This document shows, one piece after another, positions 27,289 through 37,370 of a DNA stretch of 64,000 nucleotides. Positions within the stretch are counted from its first letter, which is position 1. The number at the start of each line of letters is the position of its first letter. Under the pieces are notes generated by a model, which saw nothing but the letters and a program-made list of their open reading frames with translations, was not told the origin of the DNA and did not search any database. This DNA comes from Spirochaetaceae bacterium (GTDB taxonomy: Bacteria; Spirochaetota; Spirochaetia; Treponematales; Rectinemataceae). The stretch is taken from the NCBI GenBank assembly GCA_025355995.1, contig JANXYQ010000127.1, forward strand, positions 1 through 64,000. The letters run 5' to 3'. A program made the position numbers and the translations under genes.

Positions 27289-27555
27289 ATGAAGATCCTA
27301 GGGATCAACGGCAGCCCGCGAAAGGGCGGCATTACGGACGCGATCCTCAAGATGGCCTTCGAGCCCCTCGAGGCGGCCGGCGTCGAGACGGAGATCGTTC
27401 GGATCGGCGGGGGCAACATCCGCGCCTGCACGGCCTCATGGGAAGGAAACCCTAGGACGCTCCCGATGCGCGGCATCCTCGACCGCCGGAGGCCGAGCCT
27501 GCGGCGACGGCCTTGCCTTCGGCCGACGCCTTCGCGGATAATGCCGCAAGGATAG
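27289..27555 (+). pseudogene. Truncated NADPH-dependent FMN reductase-like gene
   Basis: The first ~52 residues are a clear flavodoxin/FMN-reductase start (MKILGINGSPRKGG, then a helix and VETEIVRIGGGNIRACTA). After ACTA the sequence becomes arginine/proline-rich shadow-like code and stops at residue 88, whereas family members have about 180-200 residues and a CxxC-type loop at this point. The Shine-Dalgarno (GGGGAGG) is intact, so a short product may still be made. Confidence 0.6.
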
Positions 27556-27564
27556 GGGAGGCAC

Positions 27565-27840
27565 ATGATTAAATCCGAATACGACGAGATCATCGAATTG
27601 AGCGCCAAGCACTTCTCGGACCAGATGGAGCTCGACGGTTGGCTGGGCGCCCAGATGGAGAAGCTCGGATTCGACCTGTCGGAGATATCCGGGAGCGTAG
27701 TCCACGAAATATTCCTGAAAACCCTGATCAAGCTCAAGGACGAGAACGAGGAAGAGTTGGAGCTCGAAGAGGACGAGGAGTACGAGGACGACGACGAGGA
27801 CGAAGAGGAGTTCGACGAGGGCGAGGACGAGGACGATTAG
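27565..27840 (+). CDS. Small protein with a polyacidic C-terminus
   Basis: 91 aa. Residues 1-60 form a predicted helical domain; from ~60 on almost every residue is Glu or Asp (EEDEEYEDDDEDEEE). GGGGAGG precedes the ATG at 27565. No family recognised. Acidic tails of this type occur in nucleic-acid mimic, chaperone-binding or ion-binding proteins, but nothing decides between these. Lies 9 bp after the truncated reductase. Confidence 0.55.
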   Translation: MIKSEYDEIIELSAKHFSDQMELDGWLGAQMEKLGFDLSEISGSVVHEIFLKTLIKLKDENEEELELEEDEEYEDDDEDEEEFDEGEDEDD

Positions 27841-30393: not shown

Positions 30394-30455
30394 AGATAAA
30401 AAAATACCCGGTCGCGGCTCGAGAGTCTATAGGTATCTTTTACGGGGAGCCCAGA

Positions 30456-31202
30456 ATGAAACGATTCCTCGCAGGCTTGATCCTCTCCGCCGCTTTCCTG
30501 TCGCCGGGGGCCTCGGCCCAGGGCTCGGCTCTCGGCTTCCTGAACGGGATACTGGGGGAGGCGGAGGGCGGGGAGGCGAGGAGCTCCGAGCGCCTGTCGG
30601 GAGGCGTCATGCTCCTCGCCGACGATCCCGCGAGCTACGCCATCTACGATTCGATGCAGGCGCAGGTGCTCTCCCTCGGGGCGGAGATGGGGAACGGCGA
30701 CGACCTGCTGTCCTACTACCGCCTCGTGGACTCGATCCTCGGGAACCTCGTCGACATCGAGCAGCGCATTCGCGAGCTCCTCGCCCAGAGGGCCGGGGGG
30801 ATACTCGACGACTCCGACAAGGAGGCGATAGACTCCGAGATAGGGCAGCTCTATGACGAGGTCGCCTATACGCTCGCGAACGCCGAGTTCAACCAGAAGA
30901 GACTCTTCCTCCCGACGGACGCGGGGATGTCCGGGCTCTTCGGGTCGGCGAAGTTCTACGACCAGGCTTCGGTCGACCGGTCCCTGGAAGACCTCATCGC
31001 GCTGCGCTCGGGGGCGGGCGCGAAGGTCGAGGCCCTCGGGTTCGCGGTCTCGGGCCAGGGGATCGAGGCCGAGAACGAGACCGCGGCCCTGAGCCAGGGC
31101 GACACTGATTTCGCGAGGGAGCTGGCGGCGCTCCAGCGGAGCCACATCCTCGCCCTCGCCGATATCCTGATGCTCAAGCGTTCGGCGCCGCCCCTAAGAT
31201 AG
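30456..31202 (+). CDS. Secreted flagellin-like protein with a Sec signal peptide
   Basis: 248 aa. Residues 1-21 are a clear Sec signal peptide (MKRFLAG..., cleavage near ASA|QG). Residues ~43-151 follow the flagellin N-terminal D1 domain almost step by step: SSERLSGG, LADDPASYAIYDSMQAQV, IEQRIRELLAQ, EIGQLYDEV, ANAEFNQKRLF. Residues ~172-242 match the C-terminal D1/D0 part (SLEDLIALRSGAGAKVEALG, ENETAALS, D.DFARELAALQRSHIL). True flagellins leave by the flagellar type III system without a Sec signal; the hypervariable centre is only ~20 residues. GGGGAG upstream of the ATG. No flagellar genes nearby. Confidence 0.75.
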   Translation: MKRFLAGLILSAAFLSPGASAQGSALGFLNGILGEAEGGEARSSERLSGGVMLLADDPASYAIYDSMQAQVLSLGAEMGNGDDLLSYYRLVDSILGNLVDIEQRIRELLAQRAGGILDDSDKEAIDSEIGQLYDEVAYTLANAEFNQKRLFLPTDAGMSGLFGSAKFYDQASVDRSLEDLIALRSGAGAKVEALGFAVSGQGIEAENETAALSQGDTDFARELAALQRSHILALADILMLKRSAPPLR

Positions 31203-31712: not shown

Positions 31713-34388
31713 ATGGCCGATATTCATGATTCGCGCCGCGAGGCGATAGCCTCGCGGCTTACCTTCAGCGCCGAGGTCAGGAGCACGACCGCCACCATAA
31801 ATCGGCTCTGCTCCAAGCCCTTCGACAGGATGCACTTCTTCTTCGACGGCCACGTCAGCGGCATCAAGAACCTCGTATACGACAAGGCCATCGACATGGC
31901 CCTCCTCTACGGCGCCATCTGCTCCGCGAACGGGGCGGACAGGCTCGTCGCCCTCGCCAGGCTGCGCGACGAGGCCTACAACTTCCAGGGACTCGAGATG
32001 CCGTACAACACGAGGCGCATCCTGATAGCCCTGATGAAGGAGACGGTGAAGGCCAAGGGCGAGCTCGCGCTCCAGCATCGCTACATGGCCGCCTTCGGCC
32101 AGGCCCTCTCGGGCAGGGCCTACGTCGTCAGGAGCATGCTCGACGAGCTGGGCCTGGCCGAGGTCCCCGAGGCCGCCGCCTCGAGGGGCGACGGCTGGGA
32201 CGACCACGTGTACGACAACGCGGGCCCGGGGAGGAAGACGCCGGCCCAGCTCGTCCTCGACGCCTATATAAAGGGCCTCTCGCGCCTCACGATAGTCTAC
32301 GAGGACCTCCTCGAGACGGCAGCCCTCGAGGAGGCGATCGAGGCCGGGCGCATCATGGGCATCGGAGTCACGATCGGGATCGAGTGCCTCGCCCAGACCC
32401 GGGCGAAGCGGCGCTTCTACCACGTCCTCCTCCTCTGCGGCTGCGGGACGGTTACGGAGCTGGCGGCCCTCCTCGACGCGCCATCGGTGAAGGGCCTGCT
32501 CAAGCTGGTCCACGGCAACTACGCGGAGTACGACAGGCTCTACGCCGAGCTCATCCACCAGTTCAACAAGAAGTCCCTCCCGATCATCAACGAGGGTTTC
32601 GACGGGACTCCGGGCGAGATGAAGAAGCTCTCGGTCGAGGGGCTGCGGGCCCAGGCCAAGGGCAAGTACCTCTTCCACTCCCACCTGGGCCAGCTCCTCC
32701 ACCGCCGCCTCGCCAAGCTGCGCGAGGCGAGGGCAGCCGTCCGACCCGGCGACGGGGGCATCGATCGGCTCAAGGCCGCCGAACTCCGCAAGCGCTTCTT
32801 CGACCCGCTGTACAAGGACATCCTCGCCGATGGCGAGTTCGTGAAGGCCGACAAGCTCTACGCCGCGGTCGCCGGCGTAGAGGCTGAGCTGGGCGAGAGG
32901 CGCGTCCTCGTCTCCTACGTGCGGCCCCTCGACGACGAGCTCGAGGTCTGCGTGAGACAGCTCCTGGGGAACGCCGCGGACATCGACGCGATAGAGCTGT
33001 GGAGCAATCGCGCGAGGCAGGCCGGCTACGCCGAGGACGCGCGCTTCCTCGAGGCCCTGCGGCGCGCCTTGAATCGCGGGGACGCCGCTGCGACCGCCGC
33101 CCTCGCCGCGGGGCGAGGCGTCGCGGGCATCGAGGACGGGCTTTTCGCCGCCGCCGCGGCGCGCTACTCCTCGCGGCCCCTCCTCGGGCGCATAGGCAGC
33201 CACTCCGACGGCTACAGCTTCATGGCGCCGGGCATGGGCTTCGTGCCCCGCGACGAGCTGCGCAATTGGCGAGCGGTGCTGTGGACGAACAAGTCCTCGC
33301 CCCTGCCCGTCGCCCTGCCGGGGAAGGGCGGGCGCGGGGACCGAGCCATCATCCCCCTCGGCAAGGACCGGGGGGCGGCGCGCAGGCCCGAGGCCATCAC
33401 CAAGCCGCTCTCGCTGATCGGGCGCTGGAGGGACCTCAACTCCGGCATCCGGGACGTCGCGCGCATGGTCGGCGGCGCCGCGTTGGCTCTCCTCACGGCG
33501 CAACTGCTCTCCATCCTCTCGGGCTTCCCTCCCTCCGTAGGTCTCTTCCTGATCGGCGCCTGGTTCGCGATCACCTATACTCGCAACTTCATCGTGGACG
33601 AGATCGCGAGGCACGGCCTGCACATCGCGCGCTGGCGCCTCGCCTCCTTCGACGCGCCCAACGCGGCCAACTCGATCTTTTTCACCTTCATGTCCATACC
33701 GCTGCTCCGCTTCGTAGAGCAGCTCCTCGACCGCTTCGTCTTCAACGGCGTTGCGGTTTCGCTTGGATTGAGCGACCTCGCCTTCAGGCTGATCCGCTTC
33801 GTTCCCCTGGCCATCGTCAACGGGACTTACATCTACAGCCACAACAGCCTCCGGGGCTTCACCAAGAGCGTGAAGCGGGCCAACTTCCTGCGCTCCGCGC
33901 TGGCCTTCCCCCTCGCGATCGGCCTTTCCTACCTGAACCCCTGGGGCGCCCTTATCCCCGGCGCCCTCATCAACAAGCTTGCCTCCGACATCATCGGGGG
34001 CTTCACCGAGGCGACCTTCAAGATCATGAAGGAGACCAGGAGGGCGCGGCAGATGTACGAGGCCCTCCTGCCCCTCCTCGCGACCGACGCGGAGGGCGGC
34101 CGCGAGAAGTACGTCCAGCGCCTGGCCATACTCGACGTACTCTACGTCTGGGGGAACAGCGCGCGGGGCAAGGAAGCCCTCAAGAAGGCCATCGCCTCCT
34201 CGAAGAGGCCCGAGGCCATATGGGACGCCCTGGAGACGCCGGTGCACAAGTACGAGTCCTTCGTGAAGCTGATCACCGGCAAGACGGCCTGGCGCAAGCC
34301 CCAGAAGATCAAGCTGGAATTCCTGCGGCTCGCCGCGGCCTTCAGCTACTGGCTCGAGCGGAACAGGCCGGCTTCCTCCCGTGGCTAG
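31713..34388 (+). CDS. Large membrane protein of unknown function
   Basis: 891 aa, start at 31713 with AGGGA upstream. I do not recognise the family. Residues 1-580 appear soluble; segments FFFDGHVSG, the EAGRIMGIGVTIGIE strand and GRIGSHSDGYSF contain His/Asp patterns that resemble PHP-type metal hydrolase barrels, but this is a weak impression. From ~585 there are four hydrophobic stretches (MVGGAALALLTAQLL, VGLFLIGAWFAITYT, near 670-705 and 728-765), followed by a ~120-residue soluble tail with helix-rich, repeat-like character. It overlaps the permease gene by 8 bp, so the two are made together. Confidence 0.6.
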   Translation: MADIHDSRREAIASRLTFSAEVRSTTATINRLCSKPFDRMHFFFDGHVSGIKNLVYDKAIDMALLYGAICSANGADRLVALARLRDEAYNFQGLEMPYNTRRILIALMKETVKAKGELALQHRYMAAFGQALSGRAYVVRSMLDELGLAEVPEAAASRGDGWDDHVYDNAGPGRKTPAQLVLDAYIKGLSRLTIVYEDLLETAALEEAIEAGRIMGIGVTIGIECLAQTRAKRRFYHVLLLCGCGTVTELAALLDAPSVKGLLKLVHGNYAEYDRLYAELIHQFNKKSLPIINEGFDGTPGEMKKLSVEGLRAQAKGKYLFHSHLGQLLHRRLAKLREARAAVRPGDGGIDRLKAAELRKRFFDPLYKDILADGEFVKADKLYAAVAGVEAELGERRVLVSYVRPLDDELEVCVRQLLGNAADIDAIELWSNRARQAGYAEDARFLEALRRALNRGDAAATAALAAGRGVAGIEDGLFAAAAARYSSRPLLGRIGSHSDGYSFMAPGMGFVPRDELRNWRAVLWTNKSSPLPVALPGKGGRGDRAIIPLGKDRGAARRPEAITKPLSLIGRWRDLNSGIRDVARMVGGAALALLTAQLLSILSGFPPSVGLFLIGAWFAITYTRNFIVDEIARHGLHIARWRLASFDAPNAANSIFFTFMSIPLLRFVEQLLDRFVFNGVAVSLGLSDLAFRLIRFVPLAIVNGTYIYSHNSLRGFTKSVKRANFLRSALAFPLAIGLSYLNPWGALIPGALINKLASDIIGGFTEATFKIMKETRRARQMYEALLPLLATDAEGGREKYVQRLAILDVLYVWGNSARGKEALKKAIASSKRPEAIWDALETPVHKYESFVKLITGKTAWRKPQKIKLEFLRLAAAFSYWLERNRPASSRG

Positions 34389-36863: not shown

Positions 36864-37370
36864 TCACTCCATCGGCACCATGGTGTCGACCATTTCGAGG
36901 ATGGCGTCGTACAGCGTCTTGCTCTTCAGGCTGGGAACCATGAAGGCGAAGAAGAAGGTCCTCTTCTTCACGTCCGAGTTGACGAGGAGTCCGAAGAAAC
37001 CGTCGTGAGCGACGCCCTTACCGTCCTTGTAGGTTCCCTTGCCGTAGGCGAAGTCGAGGCCGTTGTCGGAATGCGTGTCGATGAAGACGAAGTTCTTGAC
37101 GCCGTTCTGGGTAGCGGCCTTCGCGACGTTCTTCTCGCTGAGGTCCTTCGCGGCGTAAACGGTGTCGTATTTGTCCAACATCACCGTGAGCGCCTCCGAG
37201 GCGGAGTACGCGATCCACGTACCGGTATCGATGGTCGCCTGGGTGTCGTCGGGAAGGTAGAGGCCGACCTTGGCGGCGTCGCAGACTTGGCTCGGGTCAT
37301 CGCCGCTTTGGGCAGCGGCAAAAGAGAAAATAGTAAGGGCAAGGGCCATCGTAAGCGCGACTCGTTTCAT
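36864..37370 (-). CDS. Secreted protein of unknown function
   Basis: 168 aa with a Sec signal peptide (residues 1-20, FSFAAA|Q) and GGAGGAAA before the ATG. The mature part has an alpha/beta pattern (VGLYLPDDTQATIDTGTWI, NFVFIDTHSD, KTLYDAILEMVD). No family recognised. It converges with the preceding operon and follows the ABC operon after a 126-bp gap. Confidence 0.6.
   Translation of the reverse strand: MKRVALTMALALTIFSFAAAQSGDDPSQVCDAAKVGLYLPDDTQATIDTGTWIAYSASEALTVMLDKYDTVYAAKDLSEKNVAKAATQNGVKNFVFIDTHSDNGLDFAYGKGTYKDGKGVAHDGFFGLLVNSDVKKRTFFFAFMVPSLKSKTLYDAILEMVDTMVPME

Follow-up and report, generated by a model that had tools for sequence, protein, structure and literature searches.

A flagellin homologue with a predicted Sec signal peptide in the Spirochaetota

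The window, by which we mean the whole 64,000-nucleotide stretch of DNA analysed here, carries on its forward strand a gene at 30456..31202 that we term a Sec-flagellin. The coordinates and frame given by the first-pass annotation are confirmed: a 248-aa open reading frame (ORF) begins with the ATG at 30456, and its stop codon ends at 31202. The assignment of the gene to clade 1 of a wider family draws on the ORF, the Pfam and PDB matches, codon GC and orthologues described below. A GGGGAG motif resembling a ribosome-binding site (30444..30449, +; read from the sequence) lies a few bases 5′ of the ATG. About 20 open codons upstream of this ATG contain no start codon, and the N-terminus is therefore not mis-called. 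The codon-position GC of 0.67/0.43/0.90, in a window of 66% GC, fits a real gene. Seven clade-1 genes were examined upstream of the start codon, and most of them have AT-rich TATA-like elements 10–25 nt 5′ of it, that of the window gene being tctataggtat.

The neighbours of the gene in the window encode metabolic or transport functions (PEP carboxykinase, nitroreductase, a glyoxalase-like protein, an amino-acid permease, TauE, a methyltransferase and a DnaJ-domain protein). Several other ORFs were recorded in the window: an 88-aa ORF at 27289-27555, whose start resembles that of an NADPH-dependent FMN reductase/flavodoxin (MKILGINGSPRKGG) but which then breaks off, perhaps through truncation or a frameshift; a 91-aa protein with a long C-terminal Asp/Glu run (27565-27840); a large ORF close behind the Sec-flagellin (31713-34385; about 890 aa), with membrane segments predicted by eye; and a 168-aa protein with a signal-peptide-like start (36867-37370). 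The last three have no Pfam match.

The product of 30456-31202 is a genuine flagellin homologue, as the first-pass annotation had proposed. It matches Pfam Flagellin_N (PF00669) with 47.2 bits against a cut-off of 26.6 (E 2.9e-12) and PDB flagellins in phmmer searches at a best E of 5.8e-18, the top match being aligned over both the N- and C-terminal segments; these E-values, together with 25 relatives, rule out chance resemblance. Identity to FlaB is about 25–31%, and the flagellin segments quoted in the first-pass annotation align with D1 and the C-terminal D0 of FlaB. Flagellin_N is the sole domain matched: the FlaA sheath domain (PF04620) was not found in the window protein, nor was Flagellin_C (PF00700) at E up to 1, although the C-terminal helix still aligns with flagellins. 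Among relatives, two clade-1 proteins match PF00700 below the cut-off and two of four clade-2 proteins above it. The only NCBIfam models matched, far below their cut-offs, are general flagellin and HAP3 models. FlgL/HAP3 proteins share a related D0-D1 fold and give weak profile matches; however, the window protein scores far under the FlgL cut-off and FlgL forms its own long-branch clade in the tree, which rules out identity as FlgL.

The first 21 residues form a predicted Sec signal peptide, MKRFLAGLILSAAFLSPGASA (30456..30518, +), followed by QG; it is of the signal peptidase I type with no lipobox cysteine, and carries n-, h- and c-regions and an A-x-A site (ASA|Q; predicted cleavage A21|Q22). 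The window protein thus has the features of a Sec/signal peptidase I substrate and is predicted to be one, with the call made by a simple hydrophobicity and pattern measure rather than SignalP and the cleavage itself inferred. Its best 10-residue Kyte-Doolittle mean is 2.29; across the family, the best such mean in the first 40 residues is 2.2–3.6 in 26 of 26 members, compared with 1.2 or less in 49 FlaB proteins, although in clade 2 the 5′ end of one gene (G457) is cut by its contig and the start of another (G587) is unsure. The same n/h/c pattern recurs in the 25 relatives, which bears out the Sec signal claimed by the first-pass annotation as a prediction. FlaA proteins from the same genomes begin in the same style, as read by eye. 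The flagellar apparatus is regarded as the exporter of flagellins; the Sec-flagellin probably reaches the spirochaete periplasm by bypassing the flagellar export channel.

The signal peptide precedes the first flagellin helix and is not that helix, and the search for orthologues returned the same arrangement. Relative to FlaB, only the first ~6 residues (MIINHN) are replaced by the signal peptide in the alignment; D0 aligns from about residue 7 of FlaB onward (FLN..L vs FA.R.L; SLIYLNRIL vs SAMFADRSL). The mature N-terminal D0 helix (residues 22-48; 30519..30599, +) is followed by the overlapping D0-D1 “spoke” SSERLSGG..DD (residues 43-57; 30582..30626, +), identified by alignment and regional identity and two residues shorter than that of FlaB. 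The first-pass statement that a normal D0 start is lacking was thus mistaken. Next come the D1 N-terminal helical hairpin with QRIREL and EI.QLYDE motifs (residues 58-142; 30627..30881, +), the D1 beta-hairpin AEFNQKRLF (30882..30908, +), the D1 C-terminal helix (residues 170-212; 30963..31091, +; pLDDT about 85-96) and a C-terminal D0 helix that is shorter and more hydrophobic (residues 219-243; 31110..31184, +). The variable centre is missing, as first described: after the beta-hairpin, FlaB has an outer D1 centre of ~45 residues (about 139-185) that is absent here, with an occupancy of 0.11 in clade 1 and 0.17 in clade 2.

Structure prediction agrees with this layout. A first AF2 model built on 12 alignment rows gave D0 a pLDDT under 50; a second, with 54 rows of relatives, improved D0 (helix 22-48, about 52-54) and reached a mean pLDDT of 76.8, with most of the D1 core at 82-97. 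In this better model the signal-peptide stretch is low-confidence and non-helical, and the first mature helix begins at residue 22. The model shows the helical hairpins of flagellins; with these present and the signal peptide lying ahead of D0 in orthologues, neither outcome that the first-pass annotation had set as a refutation was seen. Leptospira FlaB gives the best Foldseek matches (6pwb, 3.2e-06; 9lrz, 3.5e-06), and VIA-align superposes about 160 residues on flagellin D1 at Z 14-15 and an rmsd of about 2.2. The protein is thus predicted to have a D0-D1 flagellin fold in which N- and C-terminal helices pair up about a beta-hairpin; D1 is confident, whereas D0 is placed only tentatively, as alignments that include D0 give an rmsd near 20.

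What has been kept and what has been lost suggests how the protein might work. The spoke is the best conserved region of the family (identity 0.62 in clade 1 at 33-48, 0.63 in clade 2), against about 0.34–0.39 in D0 and D1 of clade 1, where D0 is conserved about as much as D1, and 0.23–0.47 elsewhere in clade 2. The termini of flagellins lack order in the monomer and gain it in the filament (PMC8306008); conservation of spoke and D0 thus suggests that the Sec-flagellin works in a partner-bound or polymeric state, attached to itself or to another flagellin. The C-terminal end of FlaB D0 (273-286; last ~12 residues) is occupied only 27% in both clades, and Sec-flagellins have neither the complete C-terminal D0 helix ending at about LLQ nor the M(I/V)INHN-type start free of a signal peptide that characterize FlaB. 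The FliS chaperone site of FliC is its last 40 residues (PMC8306008), and loss of MIINHN and of the last ~12 residues therefore points to erosion of the parts that serve type III export.

One rival reading is that Sec-flagellins assemble by themselves, in the periplasm or at the cell surface, into a flagellin filament made without type III export; we consider this quite unlikely. Both clades are missing the last ~12 C-terminal D0 residues, which in known flagellins add to the filament core, and at the loci examined the Sec-flagellin is not linked to any gene dedicated to assembly or capping. On the other side, D0 and the spoke, which are ordered only on polymerization (PMC8306008), are conserved in clade 1 at least about as well as D1, and a D0-D1 core is enough for filaments in spirochaetes and in B. 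subtilis (PMC9254593).

Profile searches identified 26 Sec-flagellins in two clades and 10 family-level groups of Spirochaetota; in a contig scan, a single sequence gave no match, and an alignment gave 10 loci. Clade 1 comprises 12 proteins, including that of the window, from families f1, f4 and f42 and four further named assemblies; the named relatives are metagenome-assembled Spirochaetes/Spirochaetales. Clade 2 was found in 14 of 393 sampled genomes (families f25, f28, f39, f47, f50, f51 and f57), and in its proteins the N-terminal extension beyond the signal peptide is longer. In the maximum-likelihood tree, clade 1 (support 100/100), clade 2 (97/93) and FlaB (87/95) each lie on one side of a branch; Sec-flagellins do not group with FlaB, and the branching order among the three has a support of only 52, so that the two Sec clades may or may not be sisters. 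A Sec-flagellin is a flagellin by homology and fold, and not a FlaB by defining features. The dN/dS ratios of 0.22–0.41, of which the higher-dS comparisons are near saturation, indicate a family under purifying selection. A TGA in one member (G010), considered as a possible disruption, is a normal stop codon.

These data bear on the reading that the protein is an ordinary minor flagellin exported through the flagellar apparatus, with a start that only looks like a signal peptide, or else a decaying paralogue. Its divergence from FlaB is high, and FlaB paralogues are common among spirochaetes. However, the hydrophobic segment occurs in every member with no overlap with FlaB, D0 begins only past that segment, and the export- and chaperone-related ends have been lost; intact frames and the dN/dS values rule out a pseudogene. 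We therefore regard this reading as very improbable.

The window genome has three normal FlaB genes and an FlgL-like gene on other contigs, and it also has several FlaA genes; given the FlaB and FlaA genes, it encodes ordinary spirochaete periplasmic flagella. FlaB and/or FlaA are likewise encoded in 22 of 22 holder genomes. As FlaB was found in all 90 of the phylum's genomes sampled at a completeness of at least 90%, co-occurrence with FlaB says little phylum-wide, and it carries weight only in family f1. There, a Sec-flagellin occurs in three of 11 genomes with FlaB-type matches and in none of 19 without (Fisher about 0.04, calculated by hand, many f1 genomes in the comparison being incomplete). 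The 19 of 30 f1 genomes without a FlaB-type match belong mainly to genera g12 and g13, a pattern that suggests loss of flagella within a family having flagellated members. No Sec-flagellin was found in the other genome of the window's genus (79% complete) or in most flagellated relatives. The distribution is patchy, and the Sec-flagellin is therefore not a required part of the flagellum.

Across 23 loci, no neighbour is common to many and only the gene itself is broadly shared; at most loci, including that of the window, the neighbours are unrelated to flagella. The first-pass observation that flagellar neighbours are absent therefore holds for the window but not for the whole family, since flgBC-fliEFG adjoins the Sec-flagellin gene in two clade-2 genomes that belong to different families. 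In G569 (L131:9774-16848), the gene is directly upstream of, and on the same strand as, flgB-flgC-fliE-fliF-fliG-fliH-fliI (flgB and flgC identified by Pfam, the remaining genes by reading ORFs). In G564 (L129:1881-10436), it is on the opposite strand, separated by one ORF from the fliG end of a flgB-flgC-fliE...fliF-fliG cluster. Ahead of the G569 gene lie a sensor kinase and a LuxR-type response regulator, and in G564 two opposite-strand genes, one of them sigma-factor-like by eye, separate flgB-flgC-fliE from fliF-fliG. By a rough post-hoc estimate, the chance of two adjacencies to this operon in about 22 genomes is near 0.001, or nearer 0.04 if any flagellar cluster counts; the adjacency is supportive of a flagellar link and not decisive.

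Patchy distribution and unrelated neighbours at most loci would also be expected if the flagellin fold had been repurposed, with no flagellar tie, for a periplasmic protein that is monomeric or attached to the membrane (a chaperone, scavenger or adhesin), and the C-terminal segment of clade 1 is more hydrophobic than that of FlaB (median 12-residue maximum 1.76 vs. 1.02). Conservation of the spoke and D0, the flgBC-fliEFG adjacency in two families and the absence of members from all 19 f1 genomes without FlaB-type matches argue against this reading, and we judge it unlikely.

The best explanation, to which we give about an even chance, is that the Sec-flagellin serves the periplasmic flagellum as an accessory protein, delivered by Sec and acting via flagellin-type contacts. 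This reading follows from the facts that spirochaete flagella are periplasmic and that their sheath protein FlaA is Sec-exported: FlaA has a signal peptide, and current thinking is that it joins the filament once Sec has exported it (PMC9254593). A FlaB paralogue would have switched from flagellar type III export to Sec, with a signal peptide, presumably cut off by signal peptidase I, in place of the first residues of FlaB. The product would be a soluble, trimmed D0-D1 flagellin core, probably periplasmic, that could engage the flagellum from outside by a FlaA-like route through D0, spoke and D1 contacts. Candidate contact sites are filament ends, exposed protofilament surfaces and unassembled FlaB, and the protein may decorate, end, nucleate or compete with FlaB, with whatever effect on the filament each of these might have. 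The accessory reading is favoured by homology, fold, the signal peptide in 26 of 26 members, the conserved spoke and D0, the loss of the ends that serve type III export, purifying selection, the flgBC-fliEFG adjacency and co-occurrence in f1. Against it stand the ubiquity of FlaB, the unrelated neighbours at most loci and the patchy distribution; moreover, a FliD-capped filament would not obviously take up subunits from outside.

Comparison with known systems places the protein between FlaB and FlaA. With FlaB, the core of spirochaete periplasmic flagella, it shares homologous D0, spoke, D1 and C-terminal helices, a D0-D1 only architecture and the expected compartment, whereas it differs in its signal peptide, its missing segments (MIINHN, outer D1 centre and last ~12 residues) and its separate clades. 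With FlaA (PF04620), it shares a signal peptide, Sec-type export and an expected location in the periplasm of flagellated spirochaetes; FlaA, however, has no flagellin homology (PMC9254593), whereas the Sec-flagellin has the flagellin fold. Campylobacter jejuni FlaC similarly consists of flagellin termini without a central domain and is dispensable for a functional flagellum, but it is secreted through the flagellum (PMC8306008), whereas the predicted route here is Sec. The structure 3k8v/2zbi, of a Sphingomonas alginate-binding surface protein and not a spirochaete Sec-flagellin, is a flagellin fold annotated as a cell-surface protein; it matches the window protein in structure but is distinct in sequence. 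The first-pass interpretation is partly supported: a Sec-routed flagellin fold is upheld, but Sec export does not on its own point to an unusual filament, since spirochaete flagella are periplasmic and FlaA, too, probably gets there by Sec (PMC9254593).

In conclusion, Sec-flagellins constitute a conserved and apparently undescribed family across the Spirochaetota; we found no description of a Sec-signal flagellin family in spirochaetes in the open-access papers searched. Leptospira work postulates, on the FlaB core, a protein X whose identity is unassigned (PMC13144727), as well as sheath densities without an assignment (PMC9254593); the Sec-flagellin could be one of the unassigned components of spirochaete filaments. 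A more tentative, somewhat unlikely reading is that it represents a second class of Spirochaetota flagellin, Sec-exported and polymerizing in the periplasm, either extending the FlaB filament from outside or forming a separate one; if true, flagellin assembly would be uncoupled from flagellar type III export. A Sec-routed family that keeps the flagellin core would naturally test which parts of flagellin serve export and which serve assembly.
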